A stretch of 64,000 bases of DNA from positions 248,001 through 312,000 of the forward strand of contig NZ_SLYP02000002.1 in assembly GCF_004341505.2 (NCBI RefSeq). Direction: 5' to 3'. Positions 16,797 to 41,248 of the stretch are shown piece by piece (the stretch's first letter is position 1; the number at the start of each line of letters is the position of its first letter). This DNA comes from Sphingomonas sp. JUb134 (GTDB taxonomy: Bacteria; Pseudomonadota; Alphaproteobacteria; Sphingomonadales; Sphingomonadaceae). The notes beneath the pieces are model-generated. The model made no database searches, was not told the DNA's origin, and saw only the letters and a program-made list of their open reading frames with translations. Made by a program: the position numbers and the translations under genes.

Positions 16797-16798
16797 GC

Positions 16799-25507: not shown

Positions 25508-26131
25508 TCACTTCGGCTTGCGGCCCATGCCCGCGGCAAAGGCGATCCGCAGGGCTTCGGACAGATTGCGGACCTCGAGCTTGGCCATCAGGCTCGCGCG
25601 ATGGACCTCGACCGTTCGCGATGAACAGCCCAGGTCATAGGCGATCGTCTTGTTGGGCAGGCCGTTGGCCAGCCCTTCGAGCACTTCCCGCTCCCGGGGC
25701 GTCAGTGCAGCGACCCGCACCCCTGCTTCGGACGTTTCCAGGGTACGAAGGTCGACATCGTCGAGACGTGCGAACGCGCGGCTGACGGCGCCGAGCAGGG
25801 CGGCTTTCTCGAAGGGTTTCTCGAGAAAGTCGACCGCGCCGCCTTTCATGGCCTGCACCGCAACCAACACGTCGCCATGGCCGGTCAGGACGATGACCGG
25901 CATGTTGACCCCGCGTGCTGCCATGGCGGCCTGAACCTCGAGACCGTCCATCTCGGGCATGCGCACGTCGAGGATGACGCAGCCGACGGCCGCCGACTTC
26001 GCCTCCTTGAGAAACTCCACGCCCGAGGCATAGGTCACGACGTCGTAGCCCGCGGTCTTGAGCGCAAAGCTCGCCGCCTTGCGGATGCTCTCCTCGTCGT
26101 CGACCAGATGGATGACGCGTCTATCCCCCAT
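25508..26131 (-). CDS. fixJ: FixJ family response regulator
   Basis: A 207-residue regulator with an N-terminal receiver (HLVDDEES, Asp55 in CVILDVRMPEMDG, lysine in FLEKPF) and a C-terminal LuxR/FixJ helix-turn-helix (LTPREREVLEGLANGLPNKT, then SSRTVEVHRASLMAKL). It is activated by the FixL-like kinase encoded directly upstream, whose gene overlaps it by 11 bp. The ATG at 26131 is preferred to one at 26152 because it leads straight into the receiver strand. Confidence 0.92.
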   Translation of the reverse strand: MGDRRVIHLVDDEESIRKAASFALKTAGYDVVTYASGVEFLKEAKSAAVGCVILDVRMPEMDGLEVQAAMAARGVNMPVIVLTGHGDVLVAVQAMKGGAVDFLEKPFEKAALLGAVSRAFARLDDVDLRTLETSEAGVRVAALTPREREVLEGLANGLPNKTIAYDLGCSSRTVEVHRASLMAKLEVRNLSEALRIAFAAGMGRKPK

Positions 26132-27686
26132 GTTCCTCCTCCGCCCGCGCATGGATCAAGGTAAAATGAAAGCGCGCGCCGCCGCGGTCGGGGCGCTCCA
26201 TCCAGATACGGCCGCCATGCGCTTCGATGATGGTCCGGCAGATCGAGAGGCCGAGGCCCATGCCGTCAGCCTTTGTCGAGTTGAACGCCGTGAAGAGCTG
26301 CTCGCGGACCTCATCGGCGATGCCGGGGCCGGTATCCTCCACGGTCACCTCGATCAGCCCGTCAGGGCGCAACCTGGTCGCCACCTTGAGGTCGCGAACC
26401 GGACACTCCGCCATCGCCTCGATGGCATTGCGCATCAGGTTGACCAGCACCTGCTGGATCTGCACCCTGTCGACGAGGACCGGCGTCGCGGCGGGATCGA
26501 CCGCGAAAAAGCTGCGTATGCCGCGCTCGCGTGCGCCGACCAGCGCGAGCTGGCTCGCCTCGGCGATGACCTGCGGCAGCTCGTGGAGGCTCTTGTCGAC
26601 CTCGCCGCGGGCGACGAAATCGCGCAGGCGCCGGACGATATGGCCGGCCCGCAGCGTTTCCTGTGCCGCATCATCCATCACCGACCGTAGCGACACGAAG
26701 GGTTCGTCGTCCCGCTCGTCGAGCATGTCGCGGATCGTCTCGAGATAGAGCGCGACTGCGGCAAGCGGCTGGTTGAGTTCGTGGGCGAGGGTCGAGGCCA
26801 TCGTGCCCATCGCGCTCAGCCGGGAGACATGGACCAGCTCCGCCTGCAGTTCCTTGAGCCTGAGCTCATCCTGCTCCTTGGCGGTCAGGTCGCGAATGAA
26901 GCCGGTGAACAACCGCTGTCCGTCTTGCCCGGCCTCGCCGACCGACAGCTGCATCGGGAAAGTCGAGCCGTCGCGGCGCTGGCCGACCACGACGCGACCG
27001 AGGCCAATGATCCGGCGCTCGCCGGTCTGCAGATAATGCGCGAGATATTCGTCATGCCGGTCGCGATCGGGCTGGGGCATGAGGCAGGAGACGTTGCGGC
27101 CGACGAGCTCGGCTTCGCTGTAGCCGAACAGGCGTTGTGCCGCTGCGCTGAACGACGTGATGGCGCCGGTCTCGTCGATGATGATCATCGCATCCGGCAC
27201 CGTCGCCAGAATCGATTGCAGATGCTGCTCGCGGGTCTCGATCGATGCGCGGACCGCCGCCTCGTCGGTGACATCGCGGCTGATGCAGGCGAAGCCTCGA
27301 TGTGTGTCGCCTTCGAACAGGGCGCTGATCGTCAGGCGCGCGAGATATTCCGCGCCGTTCTCGCAGACCCGCCACGCTTCGCGCTCCAGCGTGCCCTCGT
27401 GAAGGGCGGCCGCCAGGTCTGCGCCTGGACGACGCGCCGCAATCTCGTCAGGCGGGTAGAACAGGTCGTGGGGCTGTCCCAGAACGCGATCGAGCGGCCA
27501 GCATTCGGCACGCTCGCCTTCTTCATTATAGCTCAGCACGATCCCGGAAGGATCGAGCAGCGTCAGGACGTGGCCGCCAGCCTGTCGCAGGAACAGCGGC
27601 GCAAGCCGCGCTACGTCGCTTGCAATCTCGTCCGCCCCGCGCCTCGTGTCGACCATCGGCCGGCTCACATACCTGGCCGGGCGCAC
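26121..27686 (-). CDS. fixL: FixL-like haem oxygen-sensor histidine kinase
   Basis: A 521-residue kinase with two PAS domains (about 35-140 and 150-270), a HisKA domain (His302 in STLAHELNQP) and a HATPase domain (NLMRNAIEAM; VEDTGPGIAD; GMGLGLSICRTII). In the second PAS, His211 (DRHDEYL) and Arg231 (IIGLGRVVVG) are 20 residues apart, as are haem ligand His200 and oxygen-sensing Arg220 of Bradyrhizobium FixL. Oxygen sensing is therefore likely. An alternative ATG is at 27656. Confidence 0.92.
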   Translation of the reverse strand: MRPARYVSRPMVDTRRGADEIASDVARLAPLFLRQAGGHVLTLLDPSGIVLSYNEEGERAECWPLDRVLGQPHDLFYPPDEIAARRPGADLAAALHEGTLEREAWRVCENGAEYLARLTISALFEGDTHRGFACISRDVTDEAAVRASIETREQHLQSILATVPDAMIIIDETGAITSFSAAAQRLFGYSEAELVGRNVSCLMPQPDRDRHDEYLAHYLQTGERRIIGLGRVVVGQRRDGSTFPMQLSVGEAGQDGQRLFTGFIRDLTAKEQDELRLKELQAELVHVSRLSAMGTMASTLAHELNQPLAAVALYLETIRDMLDERDDEPFVSLRSVMDDAAQETLRAGHIVRRLRDFVARGEVDKSLHELPQVIAEASQLALVGARERGIRSFFAVDPAATPVLVDRVQIQQVLVNLMRNAIEAMAECPVRDLKVATRLRPDGLIEVTVEDTGPGIADEVREQLFTAFNSTKADGMGLGLSICRTIIEAHGGRIWMERPDRGGARFHFTLIHARAEEEHGG

Positions 27687-27714
27687 GTATCCGGGCGTAG
27701 CCCGACCGTGCCAC

Positions 27715-28188
27715 TCAGCGCCGCGCGAGTATGGCCTTCATCTCGTCGATTTCCTGCCGCTGCGAGCGCTTGATCGATTCGCAAAGCCGGATGACTTCCG
27801 GATCGCTGAGCTTTGCTTCCTGGCACATCAGGATCGCCCCGGAATGGTGCGGGATCATCGAGCGCAGAAAGGCCGTGTCGCCGATCGTGGTCTGGGTGCG
27901 GATGAGTGCAAAGCTGCCGAAGAAGGCGACCAGCGACGCGGCGATCAGCGCGATGTTGGCGGCCTTCGACGCGAACATGTGCCGCATGGCGAGGATCATC
28001 AGCACCACCATCGGCGCGACCATCATCAGCGTCATGTAGAGCATGTTGAGGTTGTTGTAGAAGCTGTCGAGCCCGTCGATCATGACGAACATCACCAGAT
28101 ACATGATGACGCCGCTGATGACGGTCTGAACGGCAAGGCTCCAATAGGCGCCCATCTTCCGGGTGTTCATGTGGGACGAATGGTCCAT
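27715..28188 (-). CDS. DUF305 family copper-island membrane protein
   Basis: A 157-residue protein with three predicted membrane helices and a C-terminal DUF305 motif (FLRSMIPHHSGAILMCQEA), ending in a charged helix. It starts with a His/Met-rich MDHSSHMN. DUF305 proteins are common in copper and other metal clusters and may bind metal through their HH motif. It lies between the fixL and copB genes, transcribed in the same direction as both. Confidence 0.8.
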   Translation of the reverse strand: MDHSSHMNTRKMGAYWSLAVQTVISGVIMYLVMFVMIDGLDSFYNNLNMLYMTLMMVAPMVVLMILAMRHMFASKAANIALIAASLVAFFGSFALIRTQTTIGDTAFLRSMIPHHSGAILMCQEAKLSDPEVIRLCESIKRSQRQEIDEMKAILARR

Positions 28189-28278
28189 GGCGTATCTCCT
28201 TCGCTCGGCGCCGGCCGACCTGGGTATGAGTGTAACGCCCCGCTCTCTTGTTCGCCCCCGCCATCAGCCGTCCTGATG

Positions 28279-29397
28279 CTAAAACCAGAAGCGAACGCCG
28301 GCGACGAAGCTGGTGGCATGGACGTCCTCGCCCGCAAGCCTCGACAGCCGCGCCGTGTCTCCGGCTTTGCGCAGATAGGAAACGCCGATGTAAGGCGCGA
28401 ACTGGCGGCTGAATTCGTAGCGCAGGCGCGCGCCGAGCTCTATGTTGACCAGCCCCGAACCGATGTCGTTCTCCGGAATATCCTGTGCGGCGAAATTGAC
28501 CTCGGCGCGCGGCTGGAGGATCAGGCGCTGGGTGATGCGCTGGTCGTAATAGCCCTCGACCCGGCCCAGAACATCGCCCTTGGTCGAGAGGAACAGCGCG
28601 CCTTCGACCTCGAACATGCCAGGAGCCAGGCCCTCGACGCCGATCGTCGCGTAGGTGCGGTCGGGCCCGCGGCCGAAGTCCTGGCGGATACCGCCCTGAA
28701 GATTGAAATAGGGGTCGATGGCCCGGCTGTAGAGCACCTGCACCTCGGCGCTGTCGATGCCGCGGCCGAACTCGCCTTCGCCCTCGCTCTTGAGCCAGAG
28801 CCGGTTGATGTCGCCGCCGTAAAAGCCTTCGCCATCCCAGCGATAGCCATCGCGGCCGCTATGCGCCTGATACTCGAACAGGTTGAGCAGCACCTGCCCG
28901 AAATTGTTGCCGCCGCTATCCTTCATCATGATGTCGCGCGAGCGCGCCATCTCGCCGCCGGGAAAATCACGATCGGCGAAGTGGTCGCTTGGGGGAGGCG
29001 GCGGGGGCGCATTGCCGGCCGGAAGCGCCGTGCCGGTCATTTGCATGCCGGGGATGGCGGGCATTCCCGGCATCGTTGTCTGGCCATGCTGCGAATGGTC
29101 CATACCCGGCATCTCCGGCATCGCGGGAGACGCGGGTTGCGGCTGACCGGCCGCATCTCCCTGCGGCGCAGGACTGGCCTGGTGCTGCGAATGGTCCATC
29201 GCCGAGGTGGCGTCCGGCGCTGGTGTCTGAGCGCGCGGCCTGGCGGCGGCCTTGTCCTTCTTCTTCTCCTGCGCCGGCGCCACTTCGCCCGGCGGCGCCA
29301 TGCCGGGCATGCCGTGCATCGAATGATCCTGGGCAAAGGCGGGCGCGGCAGCGAAAAGGGCGATCGCGCTCACCAGCGGCGTGAGGATGCGGGTCAT
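28279..29397 (-). CDS. copB: Copper resistance protein CopB
   Basis: A 372-residue outer-membrane protein. A signal peptide (MTRILTPLVSAIALFAAAPA) is followed by a Met/His-rich copper-binding region (HSMHGMPGM; MDHSQHQ; MDHSQHGQTTMPGMPAIPGM) and a C-terminal beta-barrel domain that ends in phenylalanine, as outer-membrane proteins do. The ATG at 29397 overlaps the copA stop, so the long upstream open frame is not used. It works with CopA in periplasmic copper handling. Confidence 0.93.
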   Translation of the reverse strand: MTRILTPLVSAIALFAAAPAFAQDHSMHGMPGMAPPGEVAPAQEKKKDKAAARPRAQTPAPDATSAMDHSQHQASPAPQGDAAGQPQPASPAMPEMPGMDHSQHGQTTMPGMPAIPGMQMTGTALPAGNAPPPPPPSDHFADRDFPGGEMARSRDIMMKDSGGNNFGQVLLNLFEYQAHSGRDGYRWDGEGFYGGDINRLWLKSEGEGEFGRGIDSAEVQVLYSRAIDPYFNLQGGIRQDFGRGPDRTYATIGVEGLAPGMFEVEGALFLSTKGDVLGRVEGYYDQRITQRLILQPRAEVNFAAQDIPENDIGSGLVNIELGARLRYEFSRQFAPYIGVSYLRKAGDTARLSRLAGEDVHATSFVAGVRFWF

Positions 29398-31322
29398 TAC
29401 GCGTCTCCCTTCGGACGGACGCTCACGACCCGCATCATCCCTGCATGCATGTGGTAGAGGAGATGACAGTGGAAGGCCCAGTCGCCGACCGCGTCGGCGG
29501 TGAAGTCCCAGGTCACCTTGCCGCCGGGCTGGACGATCACCGTATGCTTGCGCGGCGCATGATCGCCATGCCCCGTCACCAGCTCGAAAAAATGCCCGTG
29601 AATATGGATCGGATGCCCCATCATCGTGTCGTTGATGAGATTGACGCGCACCCGCTCGCCTTCGATGAAGGGGATCGGCTCGTGATGGTCCGACATTTTT
29701 TCGCCGTCGAACGACCACATGAACCGCTCCATGTTGCCGGTGAGGTGAATGTCGATGCTGCGGCTCGGCGCGCGCACGTCCGGATTGCGATCGAGCGCCA
29801 TCAGGTCCCTGTAGACAAGCACCTTGTGGCCGACGTCGGCGAGGCCCTGGCCGGGCTCGCCGGTGCGGTCTACGGGCATCGGCGAGATGGTCTGGACGCT
29901 CGGGTCGCGCTTCACCTGCGGCGCGTTCGAGAAGTCGCGCATCTTCATCGAGCCCATCGCGTGCCCGCCATGATCCATCCCCGCCATCTGGCCATCGGCG
30001 CCCATCGCGCCGTGGTCCATGCCGGCCATCGATCCATGATCCATCCCCGAATGATCCATGCCTGCCATGGCGCTATTGTCCATGGTCGCCATCGCTGCCG
30101 CCGCGCCGGTCGCGAGGCGCGCGGACGCGTTCTTCTCGGCCGTCGGATCGACGCCCCGCATAGCGCCGCCCGACATGTCCATGCCTTCCATGCCCGGCAT
30201 CGAGGACATGTCCATGCCCATGTCCTTCATGTCGGCGAGCGGCCGTTTGCGTAAGGGGGGAACCTCGCCGGCCATGCCGGCGCGCGGCGCGAGCGTGGCA
30301 CGCGCCATGCCCGAGCGGTCGATCGCCTCGCCGACAAGGGTGTAGGCCTTGTCATCGCCTGGGCTGACAACGACGTCGTAGGTCTCGGCAACACCAATCT
30401 GGAACTCGTCGACGGTGACCGGCACCACATTCTGCCCGTCGGCCTGGACGATGGTCAGCGGCAGGCCGGGGATGCGGACGTTGAAGGTGGTCATCGCCGA
30501 CGCATTGATGACCCGCAGCCGCACCCGTTCGCCCGGGGTGAAGAGCGCGGTCCAGTTGTCCATCGGACCATGGCCGTTGACGAGATAGGTGTAGGTGGAT
30601 CCGGTCACATCGGAGATGTCGGCCGGGTCCATCCGCATCTGGCCCCAGTCGAGCCGGTCCTTGAGCGGCTGATCCTTGCCCGACAGGAGCCCGGCCAGGG
30701 TCTGGCGCTGGAAATTGAAATGGCCGGGGTTGACCTTGAGGCGCCGGAAGATCGCCTGCGGCGAGAGCGCGCTGTGATCGGCGAGCACGATGACATGCTC
30801 GCGGTCATAGGCGACCGGATCGGCACCGGCGGGATCGATGATGATCGGGCCGTAATGGCCTTCCTGTTCCTGCAGGCCTGAATGGCTGTGGTACCAGTAG
30901 GTGCCGCTTTGCACGACGGAGAACTGGTAGAGGTAGTTCGAGCCCGGCTTGATGCCCGGAAAAGACACGCCCGGCACACCGTCCATATTGGCCGGCAGGA
31001 TCAGCCCGTGCCAGTGGATCGAGCTGTCCTCCTCCAGCTGATTGATGACGTTGAGCCGCACGCGCTGGCCTTCGCGCAGCCGGATGAGTGGCGCAGGGAC
31101 CGTGCCGTTGACGCCGATTGCCCGGAACTGGCGACCATCGATGCTCATCGACTGCCGGGCGATCGTCAGCGTGATGTCTTCGCCCGACACGGTCGGCAGC
31201 GTCGGCCGCATCCCCGGCGAGATCGTCTGCGCCCAGGCCGGCAGCCAGGCTGACAAGGCGGCGCCGCCACCGGCGAGGGCCGCGCCGCGAAGGAACTGGC
31301 GGCGGTCGAGAGCAGAAATCAT
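29397..31322 (-). CDS. copA: Multicopper oxidase CopA
   Basis: A 641-residue periplasmic multicopper oxidase. A twin-arginine signal (DRRQFLRGAALAGGG) is followed by cupredoxin domains with copper ligands HWHG (IHWHGLI), HSH (WYHSHSG), HPIHIHGHFF and the type 1 site HCHLLYHMHAGM. Between domains 2 and 3 is a methionine/histidine-rich insert with repeated MDHG/MDHS motifs. It oxidises Cu(I) in the periplasm. It is preceded by a promoter with the ECF-type motif described at 31365-31389. Confidence 0.95.
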   Translation of the reverse strand: MISALDRRQFLRGAALAGGGAALSAWLPAWAQTISPGMRPTLPTVSGEDITLTIARQSMSIDGRQFRAIGVNGTVPAPLIRLREGQRVRLNVINQLEEDSSIHWHGLILPANMDGVPGVSFPGIKPGSNYLYQFSVVQSGTYWYHSHSGLQEQEGHYGPIIIDPAGADPVAYDREHVIVLADHSALSPQAIFRRLKVNPGHFNFQRQTLAGLLSGKDQPLKDRLDWGQMRMDPADISDVTGSTYTYLVNGHGPMDNWTALFTPGERVRLRVINASAMTTFNVRIPGLPLTIVQADGQNVVPVTVDEFQIGVAETYDVVVSPGDDKAYTLVGEAIDRSGMARATLAPRAGMAGEVPPLRKRPLADMKDMGMDMSSMPGMEGMDMSGGAMRGVDPTAEKNASARLATGAAAAMATMDNSAMAGMDHSGMDHGSMAGMDHGAMGADGQMAGMDHGGHAMGSMKMRDFSNAPQVKRDPSVQTISPMPVDRTGEPGQGLADVGHKVLVYRDLMALDRNPDVRAPSRSIDIHLTGNMERFMWSFDGEKMSDHHEPIPFIEGERVRVNLINDTMMGHPIHIHGHFFELVTGHGDHAPRKHTVIVQPGGKVTWDFTADAVGDWAFHCHLLYHMHAGMMRVVSVRPKGDA

Positions 31323-31364
31323 TCGGTTTGTCTCAGCTTGCGGAAAGAGGGCGGGCCTACTGGA

Positions 31365-31389
31365 AATACGCAGCCCGCCCGCGTGCCCC
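31365..31389 (-). promoter_or_regulatory. Shared ECF-type promoter of copAB
   Basis: On the minus strand a GGGG block is followed at fixed distance by CTGCGTATT, 25 bp in total, 43 bp before the copA start. The same arrangement occurs twice in the divergent region at 32687-32764. The -35 block abuts the stop codon of the sigma factor gene, so copAB can be switched on separately from the sigma operon. Confidence 0.55.
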
Positions 31390-31956
31390 TCAAACTTTCT
31401 TCAAAATTTCCGCGAGGCGCGCCCGGGCGCGGTAGAGGCGTGTTTCGACCGCCTTCTGGGAGATGCCGAGAATCTCGGCGGTTTCGGCTTCCGATTTCTC
31501 ATCGATCGTCCGCAAGACGAGCGTGTCCTTGAGCGATGCGGGCAGGGCGGCGATCGCTTTCATGGCCTCTGCCAGCTGCTGCTCGGCGCCGATCGCCTGG
31601 TCGGGTAGTGGCGCCTCGTCGACGACATGTTCGGCTTCCCCCAGCGCCAGCGCGTGGGAGAAGAAGTTGCGGACCGCGCGGCGGCGGCGCCAGTCATGGC
31701 ATTTGTTGATGACGATCCGCGACATCCAGACCGGAAAAGGTCGCGCAGCGTCATAGCGGTTGAGTGCGGCGAAGGCGGCGACGAAGCTCGCCTGGGTCAC
31801 GTCGAGCGCTTCGTCGCGGTTCCCGACATGGCTGCGCACGAGGCGGTGCACCCAGCCCTGATGCCGGCGGACCAGCTCGCCATAGGCCGCTTGCCGGCCT
31901 CCAAGCGCCAGAGCCGCGAGCTCCCCGTCCGAGCAGTCGGGGAGGCACGCGGTCAT
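31390..31956 (-). CDS. ECF sigma factor, CnrH-like position
   Basis: A 188-residue extracytoplasmic-function sigma factor with region 2 (GNRDEALDVTQASFVAAFAALNRYD) and region 4 (LRTIDEKSEAETAEILGISQ, then KAVETRLYRARARL). Its start overlaps the stop of a CnrX-like sensor gene, which in turn overlaps a small CnrY-like gene. This sigma-sensor-antisigma order mirrors the cnrYXH module, known for Ni/Co in Cupriavidus, but here it sits inside a copper cluster. It probably drives copAB, copCD and its own operon. Confidence 0.88.
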   Translation of the reverse strand: MTACLPDCSDGELAALALGGRQAAYGELVRRHQGWVHRLVRSHVGNRDEALDVTQASFVAAFAALNRYDAARPFPVWMSRIVINKCHDWRRRRAVRNFFSHALALGEAEHVVDEAPLPDQAIGAEQQLAEAMKAIAALPASLKDTLVLRTIDEKSEAETAEILGISQKAVETRLYRARARLAEILKKV

Positions 31957-32393
31957 TTGGACTTGGCCGTCAGCGCTTTCACCACGGCGTCGTCGAACTT
32001 GTCCGTCTGATCCGGGCGCAGCACGGCCCGCATCGCGAAGATATGCTCGAGTGTTTCCTTCTGCAGCGCGCCCATCGCCTGGTGCGAGCGATCCACCGCC
32101 CCTGCAACCCGAGGACCATAGCCATGCTCCGCCTCGATCGCCTCGGCGAGCCGCGCGTTATCGGCGCGCAGTTCGGCCTCCAGTGCCTGACGCCGGATCG
32201 CATAGTTCTTCTCGATCGTCTCGAGACGGCTATGTTGCGCGGTGTCCAGCTTCAGATCGCGATGGAGCAGGTCGTGCAACTCATTTTCGACCGGGCGCAC
32301 CGGAACCACATAGACGCGGCCGATGACCACACCGGCGATCGCCGCGGCAAAGGTCAGCAGGACGAGGAGCAGGAGCCGGCGGTCGCGCATCAT
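31953..32393 (-). CDS. CnrX-like periplasmic metal sensor
   Basis: A 146-residue protein with one N-terminal membrane anchor (residues 6-24) and a helical periplasmic domain rich in charged residues (LHDLLHRDLKLDTAQHSRLE; QALEAELRADNARLAEAIEAEHG). This is the heavy-metal-resistance/CnrX fold, in which metal binding releases the antisigma factor. Possible ligands are the histidines in NELHDLLHRDLKL and EAEHGYG. It overlaps both neighbours by four bases. Confidence 0.78.
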   Translation of the reverse strand: MMRDRRLLLLVLLTFAAAIAGVVIGRVYVVPVRPVENELHDLLHRDLKLDTAQHSRLETIEKNYAIRRQALEAELRADNARLAEAIEAEHGYGPRVAGAVDRSHQAMGALQKETLEHIFAMRAVLRPDQTDKFDDAVVKALTAKSK

Positions 32394-32662
32394 TGTGAAC
32401 TCAGCAGCGTCGAAGGAGCGAGCGCGAGCCGCGCGTCAAAGGGCGATATCGGCCCGGCTTCGGTCGACCGCACAGGCACGGCCGAGCCGGCAATTCCCAG
32501 GAACAAGGCTGCTGCCGCGGCGATACCGAATGTCGTGGCGCTCAGGCGGGGCATGGCCTGGAGCCGGGCGATCTCGGCCATGACGCGGCTGTCCAGCCCG
32601 GCAAGCCGGGGATCGAGCGGCGCTTCCCGCAACCGGCTGAGCATGTCGTCGAGGTGGTCCAT
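32390..32662 (-). CDS. CnrY-like small antisigma factor
   Basis: A 90-residue protein with a short cytoplasmic N-terminus (MDHLDDMLSRLREAPLDPRL), one membrane helix (about residues 45-62) and a short periplasmic tail. Size, topology and position before a CnrX-like gene and an ECF sigma gene match CnrY-type antisigma factors. Sequence similarity between such proteins is low, so the assignment rests mainly on context. Confidence 0.6.
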   Translation of the reverse strand: MDHLDDMLSRLREAPLDPRLAGLDSRVMAEIARLQAMPRLSATTFGIAAAAALFLGIAGSAVPVRSTEAGPISPFDARLALAPSTLLSSQ

Positions 32663-32686
32663 GATGTTTCTCCGTCTTCACTTCTC

Positions 32687-32711
32687 AATACGCAGGATGG
32701 TCCGGCAACCC
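32687..32711 (-). promoter_or_regulatory. Shared ECF-type promoter of the sigma operon
   Basis: On the minus strand GGGTTGC and CTGCGTATT lie in a 25-bp unit, 25 bp before the antisigma start codon. The spacing is identical to the copAB and copCD copies, and positions in between also agree with copCD (TGC, GG). This suggests autoregulation of the ECF sigma factor. Confidence 0.55.
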
Positions 32712-32739
32712 TTGTCCGGGAACAAAAAGAAAATTGCGA

Positions 32740-32764
32740 GGGGTGCAGGTCGCGGCTGCGTATT
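32740..32764 (+). promoter_or_regulatory. Shared ECF-type promoter of copCD
   Basis: GGGGTGC and CTGCGTATT in a 25-bp unit, 31 bp before the copC start. With the oppositely oriented copy at 32687-32711 it makes a divergent pair of promoters recognised, by inference, by the same sigma factor. Confidence 0.55.
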
Positions 32765-32794
32765 CTCTCATGTCACTGACAGGAGAATGTCCAA

Positions 32795-33172
32795 ATGCGC
32801 TTCTTTTCGCCGCTCGCAGCCATCGCCGCCGTCGGCCTGAGTGTTTCGGCTCCGGCCTACGCCCATCCCAAGCTCGTGTCCTCGACGCCCGCCGCCAACG
32901 CCAGCGTCCCGGCGCCGTCGCGTATAACGCTCACCTTCAGTGAAGGTCTGATGCCGAAGCTGTCGGGCGCCGAGATCGTGATGACCGGCATGCCCGGCAT
33001 GCCCAACCACCGCATGGCGGTAACCGGCTTCAAGACGTCCGTCGAAGGCGACAAGACGCTCGTGCTGACGCTCGCCAAGCCGCTCATGGCGGGCAGCTAT
33101 CAGGTCGCCTGGCACGTCGTCTCGACCGACACGCACCGCATCCAGGGCAATCTCGCCTTTACCGTCAAGTGA
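32795..33172 (+). CDS. copC: Periplasmic copper chaperone CopC
   Basis: A 125-residue protein with a signal peptide cut at AYA, leaving an N-terminal histidine (HPKLVSSTP), the Cu(II) ligand of CopC proteins. The beta-sandwich includes RITLTFSEGLMPKLSGAEI, a Met-rich loop (MTGMPGMPNHRM) for Cu(I), and the final WHVVSTDTHRIQG with further ligands. It has an AGGAGAA site and is 4 bp from copD. Confidence 0.93.
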   Translation: MRFFSPLAAIAAVGLSVSAPAYAHPKLVSSTPAANASVPAPSRITLTFSEGLMPKLSGAEIVMTGMPGMPNHRMAVTGFKTSVEGDKTLVLTLAKPLMAGSYQVAWHVVSTDTHRIQGNLAFTVK

Positions 33173-33176
33173 CGCC

Positions 33177-34121
33177 ATGAACGACGTGGCACTCGTCGCC
33201 GTCCGCTGGGCGCTCTACGTCGATCTCGGCCTGTTGTTCGGCCTGCCGCTGTTCGCGCTCTATGCGCCCGGCGGCGGCCGGATGGTACAGCGGCATCTGC
33301 CGATGGTAGCAATGGTGGCCGGTCTCGCCTGTCTCGCCCTCCTGCTGTCGGCGCTGGGGTTCGCGTTGCAGGCAGCGGCCATGACCGGGCTGCCGCTCAC
33401 CCAGCCTGATCTTTCCATGGTCGCAGAGCTGTTCAACGGCACGTCCATGGGAACGGCGCTGAAGGCGCGCCTCGTCGCGCTCCTCGTTCTTCTGCTCTCC
33501 ATCCCCTTCTATCGCCGGCAATCCCGTCCTGCCTTCATCGCCTCCACTCTGGCAGGCGCGGTCGCACTCGCGACCCTCGCCTGGAGTGGGCATGGCGCGG
33601 CTGGCGAAGGCGAGGCGGGCTGGCTGCAACTGGGGGCCGATCTCATCCATCTGCTCGCCGCCGGCGCCTGGGTCGGCGCGCTTGCCGCATTCCTCGCGCT
33701 GGTACTTCCCAGGCTCGCAACCGACGATCTCGCCGCTCAAGACATGGACCGGGTCACGCTCGCCGAGGAAGCGTTGCGGGGCTTCTCCCTCGTCGGCACG
33801 ATCATCGTCGCCCTGCTGATCCTGACCGGGACGGTGAACGGCTGGTTCCTCGTCGGTCCGGGCAACATCGCCTCGCTCGGGCAGTCGACCTACGGCCTGC
33901 TGCTCATCGCCAAGCTGCTGCTGTTCGCCGGCATGCTGGGCCTGGCCGCGCTCAACCGTTATCGCCTGACCCCGGCACTTGCGCAGGCGATCGAGGAAGA
34001 GGACGCGCCACGGGCGCAGGCGCTGCTGCGCGCGAGCCTCGTCGTCGAAGGCGGTCTTGCGATCGTCATTCTCGGGCTCGTCGCCTGGCTGGGGACACTA
34101 TCGCCGCCCATGTCGATGTAG
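33177..34121 (+). CDS. copD: Copper resistance membrane protein CopD
   Basis: A 314-residue inner-membrane protein with about eight helices. Conserved CopD features include ARW at the N-terminus (VAVRWALYVDLGLLFGLPLF), SGHGAAGEG and DLIHLLAAGAWVGALAAF. It is thought to move copper delivered by CopC across the inner membrane. It follows copC by 4 bp. Confidence 0.9.
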   Translation: MNDVALVAVRWALYVDLGLLFGLPLFALYAPGGGRMVQRHLPMVAMVAGLACLALLLSALGFALQAAAMTGLPLTQPDLSMVAELFNGTSMGTALKARLVALLVLLLSIPFYRRQSRPAFIASTLAGAVALATLAWSGHGAAGEGEAGWLQLGADLIHLLAAGAWVGALAAFLALVLPRLATDDLAAQDMDRVTLAEEALRGFSLVGTIIVALLILTGTVNGWFLVGPGNIASLGQSTYGLLLIAKLLLFAGMLGLAALNRYRLTPALAQAIEEEDAPRAQALLRASLVVEGGLAIVILGLVAWLGTLSPPMSM

Positions 34122-34157
34122 CTTATCGTTTCGGACGCCTCGCGTTGGGAGAAGCCA

Positions 34158-34832
34158 ATGCAATCCTACACCCCGCCGCTCGGGACCGGATCGACGAAAG
34201 ACTATGATCGCGCGATCCGCCTGTGGACGCGGGAGAAGCGGTGGCGTGCCGCCATGCTCGCCGCCCTGGCGCCCAAAGCCGGTGAGACGGTCGTCGACGT
34301 CGGCTGTGGCACCGGCAGCTTCGCGCTGATGCTCAAGCAAGCCGAGCCCAGGACGCAGGTGATCGGTCTCGATCCCGATGCCGAGGCGCTCGACATCGCG
34401 CGGCACAAGGCCGCTGTGCGGCGGGCCGATATCGACTGGCGTCAGGGATTTGCCAGGGACGTGGCCCCGGGTACCGCCGACGCTGTCGTGTCGAGTCTCG
34501 TGCTGCATCAGATGCCGGTCAGGGAGAAGGCGGCAACCCTGCGCGCCATGTTCGCCATGCTGCGCCCGGGTGGGCGCCTGGTGATCGCCGATTATGGCCG
34601 CCAGCAGGGTTTCATGCGGCTTGCCTTCCGCCTGACCGTGCAGCGGCTCGATGGCATCGATGATACCCGGCCCAATGCCGACGGCGTGCTCCCCGGCCTG
34701 ATCGCGGCGGCCGGCTTCAGGCATGTGGCCGAGACGTTTCGGCTTTTGACCATCACCGGCGCGATCGACTTGTTTACGGCGCATCGACCGGCGCAGGACC
34801 ACGGCCTTACGGTTGCCAATGACCTTGGCTGA
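34158..34832 (+). CDS. SAM-dependent methyltransferase, class I
   Basis: A 224-residue Rossmann-fold methyltransferase: motif [14 protein letters not shown], acidic strand VIGLDPD, and the later [15 protein letters not shown]. It starts 36 bp after copD and is followed by the promoter of the copper ATPase. The family (UbiE/Methyltransf_11-like) acts on many small molecules, and the substrate cannot be inferred. Such genes often accompany copper clusters in sphingomonads. Confidence 0.78.
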
Positions 34833-34883
34833 TGGCGGCCAGGCGAACGGGCCCGCCGATTTGTCCGCTTAGGCGATTACGTA

Positions 34884-34914
34884 TTGACCCTGACACGGTG
34901 TCAGACCCTAGATC
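34884..34914 (+). promoter_or_regulatory. CueR/MerR-type promoter of the copper ATPase
   Basis: A -35 TTGACC and a -10 TAGATC are separated by 19 bp, the overlong spacer typical of MerR-regulated promoters. The spacer holds a perfect palindrome, CTGACAC-G-GTGTCAG (34890-34904), as expected for a MerR-family operator. The -10 is 25 bp before the ATPase start codon. A cueR gene ends the same operon, giving an autoregulated circuit. Confidence 0.75.
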
Positions 34915-34939
34915 GTCAGGCGTCGAAAGGAGCAAGGCG

Positions 34940-37297
34940 ATGAACGAGACACATGGAGCGGCGCATGGCGGCGGTTGCTGCGGCGGCCACAGCGCCGCGA
35001 AAGCGGCGACCGGCGTCAAGGACCCGGTCTGCGGCATGACCGTCGACCCGGCGACCACGGCGCATCAAGCCGAGCATGGCGGTGAACGCTATCATTTCTG
35101 TAGCGCGGGCTGCCGGACCAAATTCATCGCCGATCCCGAGCGCTATCTCGGCCCGCCAGCGCCGCCGGTCGCGGCGCCCGAAGGCACGATCTGGACCTGC
35201 CCGATGCATCCAGAGATCCGGCAGGACCATCCCGGATCCTGTCCGATCTGCGGCATGGCGCTCGAGCCCGCGACCGTGACTGCCGACAGCGGCCCCAGCC
35301 ATGAGCTGGTCGATTTCACACGGCGCTTCCGGGTCGGCCTGATGCTGGCCCTCCCGGTGCTGATCCTCGAGATGGGCGCGCATCTCTTTCCCGCGATCCA
35401 TCGCCTCGTGCCGATGTCGATCTCGGTATGGATCCAGTTCGTGCTGGCGACACCCGTCGTGCTCTGGGCGGGCTGGCCCTTCTTCGAGCGTGGCTGGGCC
35501 TCGCTCAAGACCCGCAACCTCAACATGTTCACCCTGATCGCGATGGGGACCGGGGTCGCCTGGATCTACAGCGTCGTCGCGACGCTCGCGCCCCAGCTGT
35601 TCCCGCCCGCCTTCCGCGGAGAGGACGGCATGGTTGCCGTCTATTTCGAGGCGGCCGCGGTGATCACTGTCCTCGTGCTGCTCGGCCAGATGCTCGAACT
35701 GCGCGCGCGCGAGCGGACCTCGGGCGCGATCAAGGCGCTGCTTAACCTTGCGCCAAAGACCGCGCGCCGGATCGGTTCCGATGGCAGTGAAGAGGAAATC
35801 AGCCTCGATCTCGTTGCGGTCGGCGACCGCCTGCGTGTGCGTCCCGGCGAGAAGGTGCCGGTCGATGGCGTGGTCGAGGACGGCCGTTCCTCGCTCGACG
35901 AGTCGATGGTCACCGGTGAGTCCATGCCCGTCACCAAGGCCAAGGCCGACACGGTGATCGGCGGCACGCTCAACCAGACCGGCGCGCTCGTTATCGTCGC
36001 CGACAAGGTTGGCCGGGACACCATGCTGGCGCGCATCGTCCAGATGGTCGCCGAGGCGCAGCGCTCGCGCGCGCCGATCCAGCGCATGGCCGATCAGGTG
36101 TCGGGCTGGTTCGTGCCCGTGGTCATCGCGGTCGCGGTGGTCGCGTTCATCGCCTGGGGCATCTGGGGCCCCGAGCCGCGCTTCGCCTACGGGCTGGTTG
36201 CGGCGGTCGCCGTGCTGATCATCGCCTGTCCCTGCGCACTGGGTCTCGCCACGCCGATGTCGATCATGGTCGGGGTTGGCCGCGGCGCCGGGCTCGGCGT
36301 CCTCATCAAGAATGCCGAAGCGCTCGAGCATATGGAAAAAGTCGACACGCTCGTCGTCGACAAGACCGGCACGCTGACCGAAGGCCGGCCTGCCGTCACC
36401 CAGATCGTGCCGGCGCCCGGCTTCGACGAAGCCGAACTGCTGCGGCTTGCCGCCTCGGTCGAGCGGGCCTCCGAGCATCCGCTCGCGCTGGCGATCGTCG
36501 AGGCCGCCAAGGATCGCGGCATCCCCACGAGCGACGTCACCGACTTCGATTCCCCCACCGGACGCGGCGCGCTCGGCACCGTCGACGGCCGCCGGATCGT
36601 GCTCGGTAATGCGCGGTTCCTCTCGGAAGAGGGCATAGCAACCGACGCGCTGGCGGAGCAGGCCGACGCCCTGCGCCGGGATGGCGCCACCGCGATCTTC
36701 ATCGGCGTCGACGGCACCGTCGGCGGCGCCTTTGCAATCGCCGATCCCGTGAAGCAGACGACGCCGGAGGCCCTGGCCGCACTCAAGGCCGAAGGCATTC
36801 GCGTGGTGATGTTGACCGGCGACAACCGCACCACAGCAGAGGCGGTGGCAAGGCGGCTCGGCATTGACGATGTCGAAGCCGAGGTACTGCCCGACCAGAA
36901 GAGTGCCGTCGTCGCGCGGTTGAAGAGCGAGGGGCGCGTGGTGGCGATGGCCGGCGACGGGGTCAACGACGCCCCCGCACTGGCTGCCGCCGATGTCGGT
37001 ATTGCCATGGGCTCGGGCACCGACGTCGCGATCGAGAGCGCGGGCGTGACGCTGCTCAAGGGCGATCTCATGGGCATCGTGCGGGCACGGCGGCTGAGCC
37101 AGGCGACCATGTCCAACATCCGCCAGAACCTGGTCTTCGCCTTCATCTACAATGTCGCCGGGGTGCCGGTGGCGGCGGGCGCGCTCTATCCGCTGTTCGG
37201 CATCCTGCTCTCGCCGATCATCGCGGCCGCCGCCATGGCGCTCTCCTCGGTCAGCGTGGTCACCAACGCGCTGCGCCTCAACCGGAAAGCGCTGTGA
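34940..37297 (+). CDS. Copper-exporting P-type ATPase with YHS and metal-binding domains
   Basis: A 785-residue P1B-type ATPase. Instead of HMA domains, its N-terminus has a His/Cys tag (HGGGCCGGH), a YHS domain ([14 protein letters not shown] ... [12 protein letters not shown]) and a heavy-metal-binding domain ([20 protein letters not shown]). The core has the CPC motif ([13 protein letters not shown]), phosphorylation site [25 protein letters not shown] and [10 protein letters not shown]. It exports Cu(I). The ATG at 34940 follows AAAGGAG and lies behind the MerR-type promoter. Names in use include copA, copF and actP. Confidence 0.92.
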
Positions 37298-37692
37298 ACA
37301 TCGGGGAGGCGTCGAAGCAAAGCGGGGTCTCGGAGCGGATGATCCGCCATTATGAGAAGATCGGCCTCATCCCGGCGCCGCCGCGCCGGGGAGCGGGTTA
37401 TCGCGACTATGGCGAGAGTGACCTCCATCGCCTGCGGTTCATCGCCAATGCCCGCGATCTCGGTTTTCCGATCGAGGAGATCCGGACCCTGCTCGGCCTG
37501 TGGGCCGACACGGGCCGCAGCAGCGCCGATGTAAAGCGGGTCGCGTTGGCGCGGGCGGAGGAATTGCAGCGCAAGGCCGAAGCGCTGACGACCCTGCGCG
37601 AGACCCTCGTCGATCTCGCCGAGCGCTGTCATGGCGACGAGCGGCCAGATTGTCCCATCATCGCCGAACTGAGTCTCGACAGAAAATGTTAG
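37294..37692 (+). CDS. cueR: CueR-like copper-responsive MerR regulator
   Basis: A 132-residue MerR regulator with N-terminal helix-turn-helix ([20 protein letters not shown]), a dimer helix, and a metal loop with two cysteines seven residues apart (CHGDERPDC), like Cys112 and Cys120 of Escherichia coli CueR. It starts with a GTG overlapping the ATPase stop codon. It most likely activates the 19-bp-spacer promoter upstream of the ATPase gene. Confidence 0.9.
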
Positions 37693-37907
37693 CGCCGGCC
37701 GCCTCTCGGACCAGACCCGCTCTGGCGGCCGGGGTGCTGATCGCACTTGGCATTCTCACGACGGGCCTCGCGATATATTTCCTCGCAGTCCGCCCGCCAC
37801 TGCTGGCGGAGGATCTTCGCCATATCGGCGGCAACCCGCAGACCCTTTCGCCGGTATTGCGGGACTGGTTCGGCGGGATAGCTGGCTCGCCCGTGCGACC
37901 GCACTGA
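37686..37907 (+). CDS. Small or truncated membrane protein
   Basis: A 73-residue frame overlapping the end of cueR, with one membrane helix (AALAAGVLIALGILTTGLAIYFLAV region, residues 12-36). The following LLAEDLRHIGGNPQTLSPVLRDWF resembles longer multi-helix membrane proteins, so the gene may be cut after Phe. Function unknown. Confidence 0.45.
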   Translation: MLAPAASRTRPALAAGVLIALGILTTGLAIYFLAVRPPLLAEDLRHIGGNPQTLSPVLRDWFGGIAGSPVRPH

Positions 37908-37948
37908 GCCTCCTGATCGTATTTGGCCGCTTTTCATACAGCAATGTC

Positions 37949-39817
37949 GTGCTGAGCTCTGACTTCTGGGGCTGGCATATGCGAGGCAATCCCTCCGTAG
38001 GACTACGGAGTGCGCAGAGGCTTCCTGCGCTTCAGGGCTTGTTGCACCGCAGCAGGAGCGAAAATGTGCAGAGTCGAAGCAATATCCCTGACCCGTTGGA
38101 CGGTCTGGCCACGACGCTGGATCGGTCGAGCTTCGCCGCCATCGCGCAGCTGACTTCAGGCCAGTCGCCCGCCACTTTGGCGCAGTCTTTTTCCGACTGG
38201 TGGACGCACATTCTCTGCTCGCCAGGCAGGCAGCTGCAGCTCGCCGCCAAGGGCGGGCGCAAGCTGATGCGGCTCGCCGACTATGCCATGCGCAGCGCAT
38301 CCGGCAGCGATCCCGAGCCGGCGATCGATCCGCTGCCCCAGGATCGGCGCTTCGCCGACGCAGCCTGGAAGCGCTATCCGTTCGACCTGATCGAGCAGGC
38401 CTTCCTGCTCCAGCAGCAATGGTGGCATGCCGCGACGACCGGCGTGAGCGGCGTCACCGGGCACCACGAAGCGATCGTCGAGTTCGCGACCCGCCAGATG
38501 CTCGACATGGTGTCCCCGACCAATTTCATCCCGACCAACCCCGTGCTCCAGCAGCGCATCCTCGAAACCGGAGGACAATGCCTTGTCGAGGGTGCGCGAT
38601 TTTTTTGCGACGACCTGGAACGCCTGGTACGCGGGGAGCCCGCAGCGGGCACGGAGGCCTATCGGGTCGGCGAGAAGGTCGCAGCCACGGCTGGCAAGGT
38701 CGTGTTTCGCAACAGGGTCATGGAACTGATCCAATATGCGCCCGCAACCGAGACGGTGCGTCCGGAGCCGATACTGATCGTGCCGGCATGGATCATGAAA
38801 TATTACATCCTCGACCTCTCCCCGGAAAATTCGCTCATCCGCTGGCTGGTAGGGCAGGGCTACACCGTGTTCTGCATCTCCTGGCACAATCCCGACAGCG
38901 CCGACCGCGATCTCGACATGGAGGATTATCGCCTGCTTGGGCCGATGGCCGCCGTGGATGTCATCCAGGCGATTACCGGCACCGAGAAGATCCACGCGGC
39001 CGGCTATTGTATCGGCGGCACGCTGCTCGCCATCACCGCGGCCGCGATGGCGCGCGATGAAGATAAGCGTCTGGCGAGCGTCACGCTGTTCGCCGCCCAG
39101 ACCGAGTTTAGCGAGCCGGGCGAACTTGGCCTGTTCATCGACGAGGCGGAAATCAACCTGATCGATGCGATGATGTGGGCGCGCGGCTTTCTCGACAGCA
39201 GTCAGATGGGCGGCGCCTTCCAGATGCTGCGATCCAACGATCTGGTCTGGTCGCGCATCCTCTCGACTTATCTCATGGGCGAGCGCGAGCCGATGACCGA
39301 CCTCATTGCATGGAATGCCGACGGCACCCGCATGCCCTATGCCATGCACGCGCAATATCTGCGGCGCTTGTTCCTCGACAATGACTTGGCCGAAGGGCGC
39401 TACGAGGCCGGCGGCCACCCGGTCTCGCTCTCGGGGCTGCGCATGCCGATCTTCATGGTGGGCACGGAAACCGACCACGTCGCGCCGTGGCGCTCGACCC
39501 ACAAGCTCCACATGCTGACGGGCGCGGAGATCCGCTTCGTGCTGACGAGCGGTGGCCACAATGCCGGGATCGTCTCCGAGCCCGGGCATCCTCATCGCCA
39601 CTTTCGCGTCGCGACACGGATGCAGGATGGCCCGGCGCCAGGTCCCGATACCTGGCTGGAGCGGGCCGAGCTGCGCGAAGGGTCGTGGTGGCCGGAATGG
39701 AGTTCATGGCTTGGATCGCACTCGGGCAAGGCGGCCGCCCCACCGTCGATGGGCGCGCCCGAACGGAACTATCCGCCGCTCGGTGATGCCCCCGGGCGCT
39801 ACGTGCTGGAGCGCTGA
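37949..39817 (+). CDS. phaC: Poly(3-hydroxyalkanoate) synthase, class I
   Basis: A 622-residue PHA synthase with the N-terminal PhaC_N domain and an alpha/beta-hydrolase core. The lipase-like box is GYCIGGT (catalytic Cys354). The aspartate lies in VGTETDHVAPW and the histidine in SGGHNAGIV. It polymerises hydroxyacyl-CoA into storage granules. An ATG at 37979 is an alternative start. A phasin gene lies 3.4 kb downstream, and the MaoC-Pta fusion gene follows after 3 bp. Confidence 0.92.
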   Translation: MLSSDFWGWHMRGNPSVGLRSAQRLPALQGLLHRSRSENVQSRSNIPDPLDGLATTLDRSSFAAIAQLTSGQSPATLAQSFSDWWTHILCSPGRQLQLAAKGGRKLMRLADYAMRSASGSDPEPAIDPLPQDRRFADAAWKRYPFDLIEQAFLLQQQWWHAATTGVSGVTGHHEAIVEFATRQMLDMVSPTNFIPTNPVLQQRILETGGQCLVEGARFFCDDLERLVRGEPAAGTEAYRVGEKVAATAGKVVFRNRVMELIQYAPATETVRPEPILIVPAWIMKYYILDLSPENSLIRWLVGQGYTVFCISWHNPDSADRDLDMEDYRLLGPMAAVDVIQAITGTEKIHAAGYCIGGTLLAITAAAMARDEDKRLASVTLFAAQTEFSEPGELGLFIDEAEINLIDAMMWARGFLDSSQMGGAFQMLRSNDLVWSRILSTYLMGEREPMTDLIAWNADGTRMPYAMHAQYLRRLFLDNDLAEGRYEAGGHPVSLSGLRMPIFMVGTETDHVAPWRSTHKLHMLTGAEIRFVLTSGGHNAGIVSEPGHPHRHFRVATRMQDGPAPGPDTWLERAELREGSWWPEWSSWLGSHSGKAAAPPSMGAPERNYPPLGDAPGRYVLER

Positions 39818-39820
39818 GCC

Positions 39821-41248
39821 ATGGCCACCGCCAACCTCATCGAGAACCGCACGTTCGACGAGATCGCCGTCGGCGACACGGCCAGCCTCACCCGCACGCT
39901 GACCGCCGACGACATCCAGCTCTTCGCGGCGGTGTCAGGCGACGTGAATCCGGCGCATCTCGACCCTGTCTATGCCGAAACGGACATGTTCCACAGGGTC
40001 ATCGCTCATGGCATGTGGGGCGCGGGGCTCATCTCGGCGATCCTGGGAACCGAGCTGCCAGGGCCCGGTGCGATCTATCTCGGCCAATCGCTTCGCTTCA
40101 CCCGCCCGGTGGGCGTCGGCGACACCATCACGGCCTGCGTCACCGTCGCGCAGAAGCGCGCCGAGCATCATGTCATCGTTCTCGACTGCGCCTGCGTGAA
40201 CCAAAAGGGCGAGACCGTCATCAGCGGCCAGGCCGAGGTCAAGGCGCCCACCGAGAAAGTCAGCCGGCCCCGCATGCCGCTTCCCGACGTGCGGATCGCC
40301 AGCCACGACCGCTTCCGCCAGTTGATGGAGCGCGCCAAGGACGGATCCGCGTGCGTCACGGCCGTGGTCCATCCGTGCAGCGCCGACGCCATGCGCGCGG
40401 TGGCTGAGGCCGCCGACGCCGGCATCGTCGTTCCAATTCTCATCGGACCTGCGGCGCGTATGACGAATGCGGCGAAGGACGCCGGTGTCGATATTGCCGC
40501 CTTCCGGGTGATCGGGGTCCCGCACAGCCACGCCGCCGCCGCCGAAGCCGTCGCGCGCGTACGGGCCGGCGAAGCCGCGCTGCTGATGAAGGGTTCGCTT
40601 CATACCGACGAGCTCATGGGCGCGGTCGTATCGTCCGACATGGGCCTTCGGACCGAACGCAGGATCAGCCACGCCTATGTGATGGATGTGCCCGGCTATC
40701 CGCGCCCGCTCATCATCACCGACGCCGCGATTAACATCGAGCCGACGCTTGAGGACAAGGCCGACATCGCGCGCAACGCGATCGACCTTGCCCATGTGAT
40801 CGGGATCGAACAACCCAGGGTCGCGATCCTCGCCGCCGTCGAGACGGTCAATCCAAGGATGCGCACCACATTGGATGCCGCGGCGCTCTGCAAGATGGCG
40901 GACCGGGGCCAGATCGAAGGCGCGCTGCTCGATGGACCGCTCGCCCTCGATAATGCGATCAGCGAGGCGGCCGTGCGCGACAAAAGTATCGTCTCGCCGG
41001 TCGCCGGCCGGGCGGACATCCTGCTGGTGCCCAATCTGGAGGCCGGCAACATGCTCGCAAAGCAGCTGACCTTCCTGGGCGGCGCCGATGCCGCAGGCGT
41101 GGTGCTCGGCGGGCGCGTTCCGATCATCCTCACCAGCCGGGCAGACAGCGTGCGCACGCGCCTCGCCTCCTGCGCGCTCGCGGTGCTGCTGGCGCGGGCT
41201 GCAACCAAGGCGTCTCCCGGCGTTGCGGGACAGCGCCGCGATGGCTGA
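39821..41248 (+). CDS. MaoC hydratase - phosphate acetyl/butyryltransferase fusion
   Basis: A 475-residue two-domain protein. Residues 1-150 form a MaoC hot-dog enoyl-CoA hydratase (SGDVNPAHLDPVYA with the Asp/His pair; AHGMWGAGLISAILGTELPG). Residues 160-460 form a phosphotransacylase (KGSLHTDELMGAVVSSDMGL; GPLALDNAIS; GNMLAKQLTFLGGADAAG). It can link enoyl/acyl-CoA pools to acyl phosphate for the acetate kinase encoded next, which overlaps it by 8 bp. Confidence 0.9.
   Translation: MATANLIENRTFDEIAVGDTASLTRTLTADDIQLFAAVSGDVNPAHLDPVYAETDMFHRVIAHGMWGAGLISAILGTELPGPGAIYLGQSLRFTRPVGVGDTITACVTVAQKRAEHHVIVLDCACVNQKGETVISGQAEVKAPTEKVSRPRMPLPDVRIASHDRFRQLMERAKDGSACVTAVVHPCSADAMRAVAEAADAGIVVPILIGPAARMTNAAKDAGVDIAAFRVIGVPHSHAAAAEAVARVRAGEAALLMKGSLHTDELMGAVVSSDMGLRTERRISHAYVMDVPGYPRPLIITDAAINIEPTLEDKADIARNAIDLAHVIGIEQPRVAILAAVETVNPRMRTTLDAAALCKMADRGQIEGALLDGPLALDNAISEAAVRDKSIVSPVAGRADILLVPNLEAGNMLAKQLTFLGGADAAGVVLGGRVPIILTSRADSVRTRLASCALAVLLARAATKASPGVAGQRRDG

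Follow-up and report, generated by a model that had tools for sequence, protein, structure and literature searches.

A CnrYXH-type sigma factor module predicted to control periplasmic copper resistance genes in Sphingomonas sp. JUb134

The question raised by the locus studied here is why a sigma factor module of a type hitherto associated with resistance to nickel and cobalt should be embedded among copper resistance genes, and whether it controls them. The locus lies in a window of 64,000 nucleotides from Sphingomonas sp. JUb134 (contig NZ_SLYP02000002.1, positions 248,001 to 312,000; here C2:248001-312000 on a 411-kb contig) and encodes an extracytoplasmic function (ECF) sigma factor, a CnrX-like sensor (X) and a small membrane protein (Y), beside copAB and the divergent copCD. 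A preliminary description of this DNA had proposed that one 25-bp promoter motif precedes all three transcription units and that they form a copper-sensing, autoregulated ECF regulon. Our best reading is that the module is of the CnrYXH type, autoregulated and rewired to periplasmic copper defence, differing from the known modules in its targets, its promoter spacer and perhaps its anti-sigma factor.

Promoter-like sites and the Y-X-sigma module

The positions and strands listed for the three sites in the preliminary description were correct, and their 25-bp sequences were found as given, namely GGGGCACGCGGGCGGGCTGCGTATT at 31365-31389 on the minus strand before copAB, GGGTTGCCGGACCATCCTGCGTATT at 32687-32711 on the minus strand before the Y-X-sigma operon, and GGGGTGCAGGTCGCGGCTGCGTATT at 32740-32764 on the plus strand before copCD. 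We delimit the corresponding promoters as GAGGGG-N13-TGCGTATT at 31365..31391 (minus) for copAB, AAGGGT-N13-TGCGTATT at 32687..32713 (minus) for the operon, where the promoter is predicted to be autoregulatory, and GAGGGG-N13-TGCGTATT at 32738..32764 (plus) for copCD. The presence of a motif in front of three operons was thereby upheld, but its extent of 25 bp was not: the conserved part consists of two blocks, GAGGGG (replaced by AAGGGT before the sigma operon) and TGCGTATT, together about 13 positions, and the spacer is free, those of the three window sites being mutually unrelated.

When the whole 4.1-Mb genome was searched for GGG-N13-CTGCGTATT, as had been suggested earlier, exact matches were found at these three places only, before copAB, the sigma operon and copCD. 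One mismatch gave six matches, among them the copC promoter (C2:226889) belonging to another cop cluster, described below, and with up to two mismatches the total of 178 was close to that of a reversed-pattern control (156), so that the exact sites are what stands out; further targets from the two-mismatch scan were rejected as near background. CTGCGTATT alone occurred 10 times in the genome, against once for its reversed control. Scanning the window at three mismatches gave no excess (20 observed, 24.8 expected), and the evidence therefore consists of the exact sites and their conservation elsewhere. A fourth CTGCGTATT in the window (17524-17548, minus) was dropped, as it has no G block and lies inside an opposite-strand reading frame (16733-17716, 327 codons, ATPase-like). 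The refined pattern GAGGGG-N13-YGCGTAWT has five exact matches in the genome, all within the two cop clusters, partly by construction because the pattern was refined on them. The sole exact GAGGGG-N14-GCGTAT outside both clusters, at C1:1805356, was likewise dropped, being inside an acyl-CoA dehydrogenase-like reading frame.

The module itself is encoded on the minus strand in the order Y (32662-32390, 90 amino acids), X (32393-31953, 146 amino acids) and sigma factor (31956-31390, 188 amino acids), the order Y-X-H, with each consecutive pair overlapping by 4 bases. The sigma factor carries the Pfam domains Sigma70_r2 and r4_2, and the best of its 17 matches in the PDB was CnrH (4cxf, E 1.4e-29; next 1.8e-16). 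X is a membrane-anchored periplasmic metal sensor (PF13801, Metal_resist) homologous to NccX and CnrX at E about 1e-18 (NccX 4clv, E 1.2e-18). Residues H42, H46, E63 and H119 of CnrX, which we take to be its metal ligands, are kept in all of 51 aligned sensor rows, CnrX and near-copies included, and M123 in 48 of them. The three that differ (L183, L184 and L187) have Leu or Ile at this position, in clusters otherwise carrying copA and the motif. In CnrX, M123 is required for signalling, and the sensor responds to Co and Ni; it is non-functional with Zn, which fails to recruit M123 and gives no signal (PMC7689651, accessible part).

Y, for which no Pfam match was found, has the position and topology of CnrY and is presumably the anti-sigma factor. 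The motif [SA]PxxLL stands near the C-terminus of 49 of 50 Y proteins (near-copies included), where shuffled sequences lead one to expect 0.3; CnrY ends in SPFGLLIGK and the Y of L243 reads SPSNLL (the latter by eye), the remaining Y sequence not being alignable to CnrY. This tail is predicted to be the part held by X. On sequence grounds the operon is cnrYXH-like, with homologous sigma factor and sensor and conserved metal ligands; the likeness noted in the preliminary description thus stands for these two proteins, but for Y it extends only to position, topology and the short C-terminal motif, and not to demonstrable homology.

The same promoter blocks are found on plasmid pMOL28, with AAGGGG-N16-CGTAT upstream of cnrY and GAGGGG-N16-CGTAT upstream of cnrC, compared with GAGGGG-N15-CGTAT in the window; a run of five G leaves the spacer count at the cnrY site open by one. 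These two promoters are named as the CnrH-dependent ones in the accessible text of PMC9045368, which places RNA-seq starts 23 and 24 bp upstream at cnrY and cnrC, that is, 8 nt after CGTAT in both cases; primer extension cited there gives 24 and 25 bp, which would make the distance 7 nt. Because the blocks are common to promoters with mapped starts, the window motif is, as judged from the DNA, a CnrH-type promoter. Transfer of the 8-nt distance predicts starts at 31357 (copAB), 32679 (Y operon) and 32772 (copCD), implying leaders of 35, 17 and 23 nt, respectively, the last in front of copC.

Conservation of the sites and co-variation with the sigma factor

When each GTDB species was represented by a single genome, a related sigma factor was found at 63 loci, 49 of which (L039-L087) show 64-100% identity. 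GGGG and CTGCGTATT were kept at the copA site of 47 of the latter, with ten different versions of the 12-base spacer; the sigma matches of L068 and L070 end before reaching that site. In a survey of the family, sigma matches with E no greater than 1e-15 were obtained in 184 of 397 genomes; many were more distant sigma factors, at about 38% identity. From the matches listed, 40 regions (L168-L207) were hand-picked for diversity. Fifty loci were finally reduced to 42 clusters having sigma factors less than 90% identical to each other.

Within 200 bp upstream of the cluster genes, AGGG-N15-GCGTA was found before copA in 30 of 35 clusters, as the preliminary description had suggested should be looked for, before copC in 33 of 34 and before Y in 26 of 29, Y having been detected by tblastn in 29 of the 42. 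It was found before none of the inner genes (X 0/42, sigma 0/42, copB 0/36, copD 0/31), and the shuffled expectation was at most 0.07 in each case. Sites were also present before DUF411 genes (3/15), copM (3/17) and the ATPase gene (1/20), and in clusters without a detected Y a further 11 lay 200-400 bp upstream of X. Of 121 sites altogether, 111 have a cluster gene downstream on the same strand at a distance of no more than 400 bp; the base counts of these 111 read [TC]GAGGG[GA]-N13-[TC]GCGTA[TA], with a nearly uninformative spacer. In a set of 49 loci, near-copies included, the N15 spacing gave 142 matches, compared with 0 to 6 for each of the other spacings between 5 and 25. The layout persists even where sigma identity falls to 40%, and at least one of copA, B, C and D was present, in the stretch read, in 40 of the 42 clusters. 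When the class was searched for the sigma factor at E 1e-35, 9 of 385 genomes had matches; four of these matches, L213-L216, are more distant ECF loci that were kept out of the cop count and in whose 1.5-kb flanks no X, cop or motif match was found.

We then compared the 109 genomes carrying a close sigma factor (best E up to 3.8e-34 among the matches listed) with the 288 others. The strict form GAGGGG-N14-GCGTAT occurred in 79 of the former (188 sites, versus 29 for the reversed control) and in 73 of the latter (89 versus 51), 152 genomes in total, an association with Fisher p 1.4e-17 that is uncorrected for kinship of the genomes. The sites within a cluster also resemble one another. Numbering from the first G of GAGGG as 0, and excluding L177 with its two sigma systems, agreement within clusters at positions 5, 7, 19 and 25, which flank the two blocks, was equalled or exceeded in only 1, 0, 0 and 5 of 500 shuffles, respectively; no spacer position from 8 to 18 fell under 42 of 500, and position 27 shows an unexplained excess too (7/500). 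Such agreement beside the blocks is expected if one local sigma factor reads the whole set, and local duplication of sites could contribute to it. We infer that the window sigma factor reads the motif, and a three-promoter regulon with autoregulation is very likely, the earlier proposal being backed by motif conservation in 42 clusters and by agreement with CnrH promoters whose starts have been mapped.

The cop genes, a second cluster and the host range

The minus strand continues from the sigma gene into copA, copB and a DUF305/CopM-like gene, and the divergent plus strand carries copC, copD, a methyltransferase gene, a P-type ATPase gene and cueR. copA (29397..31322, minus) encodes a multicopper oxidase with a twin-arginine translocation signal (TAT_signal_seq; TIGR01480, 810.9 bits, above cut-off), and the start of copB (28279..29397, minus; PF05275) overlaps its stop (TAATGA). 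The DUF305/CopM-like gene (27715..28188, minus; PF03713, with a CopM model match under its cut-off) is the probable last gene of the copAB operon. Directly after it, by eye, follow genes for a PAS histidine kinase and a FixJ-like response regulator (25508-27686, minus; response regulator 25508-26152), and Sphingobium sp. SYK-6 also has a PAS protein and a response regulator after its DUF305 gene. On the plus strand, copC (32795..33172; NF033814) and copD (33177..34121; NF033808) both scored above cut-off. The P-type ATPase gene (34942..37297), 96% identical to an SYK-6 gene annotated as heavy metal translocating P-type ATPase, probably starts at 34942 rather than 34832, and is followed by cueR (37294..37692; TIGR02044, 156.7 bits versus a cut-off of 147.4). 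A MerR/CueR-type promoter, TTGACC-N19-TAGA, precedes the ATPase gene at 34884-34912 (plus), where no sigma motif was seen; by a strict pattern such a promoter was found in 6 of 18 other clusters and is not claimed as general. No gene for a resistance-nodulation-division (RND) pump was found when the proteins at 26000-40000 of the window were read and scanned. Beside the copper cluster, at 37949-41248 (plus), lie a polyhydroxyalkanoate synthase-like gene and then a MaoC/phosphate acyltransferase-like gene, identified by eye from translations.

A second cluster of the same layout, L106, lies on the same replicon at C2:213000-232000 and comprises Y2, X2, sigma2, copA2, copB2, copM2 and DUF411 genes together with copC2 and copD2, its sigma factor being 53% identical to that of the window. 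Its sites end in GTGCGTAAA, GCGCGTAAT, CTGCGTAAT and GCGCGTATT, with -10 boxes leaning to GCGTAA; the one ending in GCGCGTATT precedes a thioredoxin-reductase-like gene (L106 12744-13754, minus), and one more site precedes another DUF411 gene.

A phylum-wide search with a sensor profile, which was built from two cop-type sensors and one cnr-type sensor and so favours the cop type, gave 24 matches in 17 of 398 genomes. Twenty of them had cop genes within about 1.5 kb (two being this genome's own), two had a cnrC-like gene, one of these outside the class, and two had neither. The full layout is present on pSLPG of Sphingobium sp. SYK-6. On plasmid p1 of Caulobacter sp. FWC26, Y-X-H lies beside genes for DUF305, ATPase and CueR, with no copA in the 14 kb read; motif-like sites one base longer precede the ATPase gene and a gene for a copper-binding protein, and Y has no site of this form in front of it. 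Of the plasmid records having the sensor, 40 of 79 were typed as conjugative. Our best reading is that the module is common in sphingomonads and present in Caulobacteraceae.

In a tree of the sigma factors, three cnr-linked ones form one clade (100/98) and most cop-linked ones a clade of 52 rows (89/87), inside which lie L172, L180 and L245, which have no cop matches; L207, L236 and L237 form a third clade (99/97). CnrH, L223 and L243 group among sigma factors with X-like partners, apart from four without. The distance to CGTA was 16 in the cop loci of the sensor search, except in L237 and L241 (17, at all three sites of each) and at one L231 site; a distance of 17 is also what the cnr promoters (L223) show when measured in this way.

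Proposed regulation, inducing metal and relation to known systems

Taken together, we consider it quite probable that the sigma factor is held by Y and X, reads promoters at its own operon, copAB(-copM) and copCD, and answers to periplasmic copper. The motif would supply the -35 and -10 elements read by the ECF sigma factor (gene at 31390-31956), and Y and the periplasmic sensor X would jointly retain that factor at the membrane while the cell is at rest. Once surplus copper in the periplasm binds X, X would disturb Y and the sigma factor would be released, whereupon the holoenzyme would initiate some 8 nt past CGTAT at each of three promoters, serving the sigma factor's own operon (as feedback), copAB(-copM) and copCD. 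Cytoplasmic Cu(I) would be handled separately, by CueR at the P-type ATPase gene. Copper is the likely inducer, as judged from the target genes; of the earlier proposal on this point, the genes controlled speak for copper but the sensor sequence does not, because X has the same ligands as the nickel/cobalt sensor CnrX and its metal cannot be read from the sequence.

Several observations weigh against this. Y shows no significant homology to CnrY (hhalign probability 5.9%, hmmsearch 6.1 bits); 30 of the 109 sigma-bearing genomes lack a strict site and 73 of the 288 others have one. L172 and L180 are close sigma relatives with no copA-D in the 12 kb read, L172 having a distant RND pump gene, 25% identical to CnrA, beside the sigma gene. 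The PAS kinase/response regulator pair beside copM could be a second input, as could a response regulator elsewhere in the genome that scores 225 bits on the CopR model (cut-off 279.2). The ligand set of X, furthermore, is compatible with nickel or cobalt, and nickel-adapted cells of Sphingobium sp. ba1 show raised levels of copA, copB and copC genes (PMC5557971, accessible part), which may or may not belong to a cluster of this kind. The same machinery might accordingly serve another signal, be it nickel, cobalt or several metals, with the cop genes as part of a broad periplasmic metal response. The conserved ligands, the ba1 data and the response of CnrX to Co and Ni speak for this; we nonetheless hold it to be unlikely, with predicted targets that are copper genes, cop genes near 20 of the 24 sensor matches and no RND pump gene among the proteins read and scanned at 26000-40000.

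That the motif belongs to a different regulator altogether, either CueR, encoded inside the cluster, or the response regulator at 25508-26152, whose gene adjoins the cluster with that of the PAS kinase both here and in SYK-6, appears very improbable: the two-block form with fixed spacing has the blocks of CnrH promoters with mapped starts, the ATPase gene beside cueR has a MerR-type promoter of its own, and the distant sigma loci L213-L216, which lack X and cop matches, show no motif in their 1.5-kb flanks. Recent copying or chance might be invoked for the three sites, two of which share one intergenic stretch of about 130 bp, the more so as the two-mismatch motif is near background in the genome; with unrelated spacers and a layout kept across the 42 clusters, we give this explanation next to no credence.

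Compared with CnrYXH of Cupriavidus metallidurans pMOL28, and NccYXH, the sigma-released module proposed here has the same order Y-X-H, homologous sigma factor and sensor with metal ligands kept, and (G/A)AGGGG and CGTAT promoters before Y and before the gene after H. Since its predicted targets are copAB and copCD, whereas that of CnrYXH is the RND nickel/cobalt pump cnrCBA, we class it as working like CnrYXH but not as cnr itself. The cnr promoter spacer is one base longer, there is no third divergent promoter before copCD there, and sigma factor and sensor are 39% and 36% identical to those of the window, Y being without demonstrable homology. CopRS, PcoRS and CusRS exert copper-responsive two-component control over copABCD, acting through a histidine kinase and a response regulator rather than by freeing a sigma factor. 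In this genome no CopR exceeded the curated cut-off, the response regulator mentioned above being the best TIGR01387 match (C2:31736, far from the cluster).

Other copper-linked ECF sigma factors are known. CorE of Myxococcus xanthus is copper-dependent and controls a multicopper oxidase, as proposed here, and a copper ATPase (PMC10141476, in part). The CorE type has a Cys-rich C-terminal extension and no anti-sigma factor, whereas in the window sigma factor of 188 amino acids region 4 reaches residue 181, and X and Y accompany it. SigAb-AabA-AabB of Acinetobacter baumannii is copper-responsive and autoregulated, and has a periplasmic partner as well as a small membrane anti-sigma factor whose modelled binding resembles that of CnrY; it differs in the order sigma-AabA-AabB, in its promoter (GTCAAC/CGTT) and in a direct regulon of sigAb, relA and an sRNA, copA/copB being, in the accessible text, only in the indirect regulon (PMC12153292). 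SigF of Caulobacter crescentus is an alphaproteobacterial ECF sigma factor induced by copper, but its anti-sigma factor is NrsF and its regulon, as far as given in the accessible text, comprises genes for DUF692, DUF2282, DoxX and sulfoxide reductase, with copABCD absent from it (PMC8224329). The preliminary description knew of no copper-sensing regulon of the present kind, and our literature searches, covering titles and abstract openings with most subscription papers outside their scope, likewise found no cop-linked CnrYXH module.

The copABCD genes would thus gain a regulator of a class different from the two-component systems usually tied to them. The rule AGGG-N15-GCGTA predicts further regulon members among DUF411, CopM-like and thioredoxin-reductase-like genes, and the [SA]PxxLL tail of the anti-sigma factor is a candidate docking site for the sensor. 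The module would also allow a direct test of how sensors that share a fold and a ligand set can discriminate copper from nickel and cobalt. More tentatively, and with some doubt on our part, copper control may be the main and perhaps original job of CnrYXH-type modules, replacing CopRS, by way of three fixed promoters, as the periplasmic copper switch of Alphaproteobacteria, with nickel/cobalt CnrH as a side branch; if so, having the same sensor ligands, metal choice would lie outside the first coordination shell. As the same arrangement recurs in many relatives, copper resistance in many related bacteria is probably switched on by this type of sigma factor, in hosts known for pollutant breakdown and with the module partly on conjugative plasmids.
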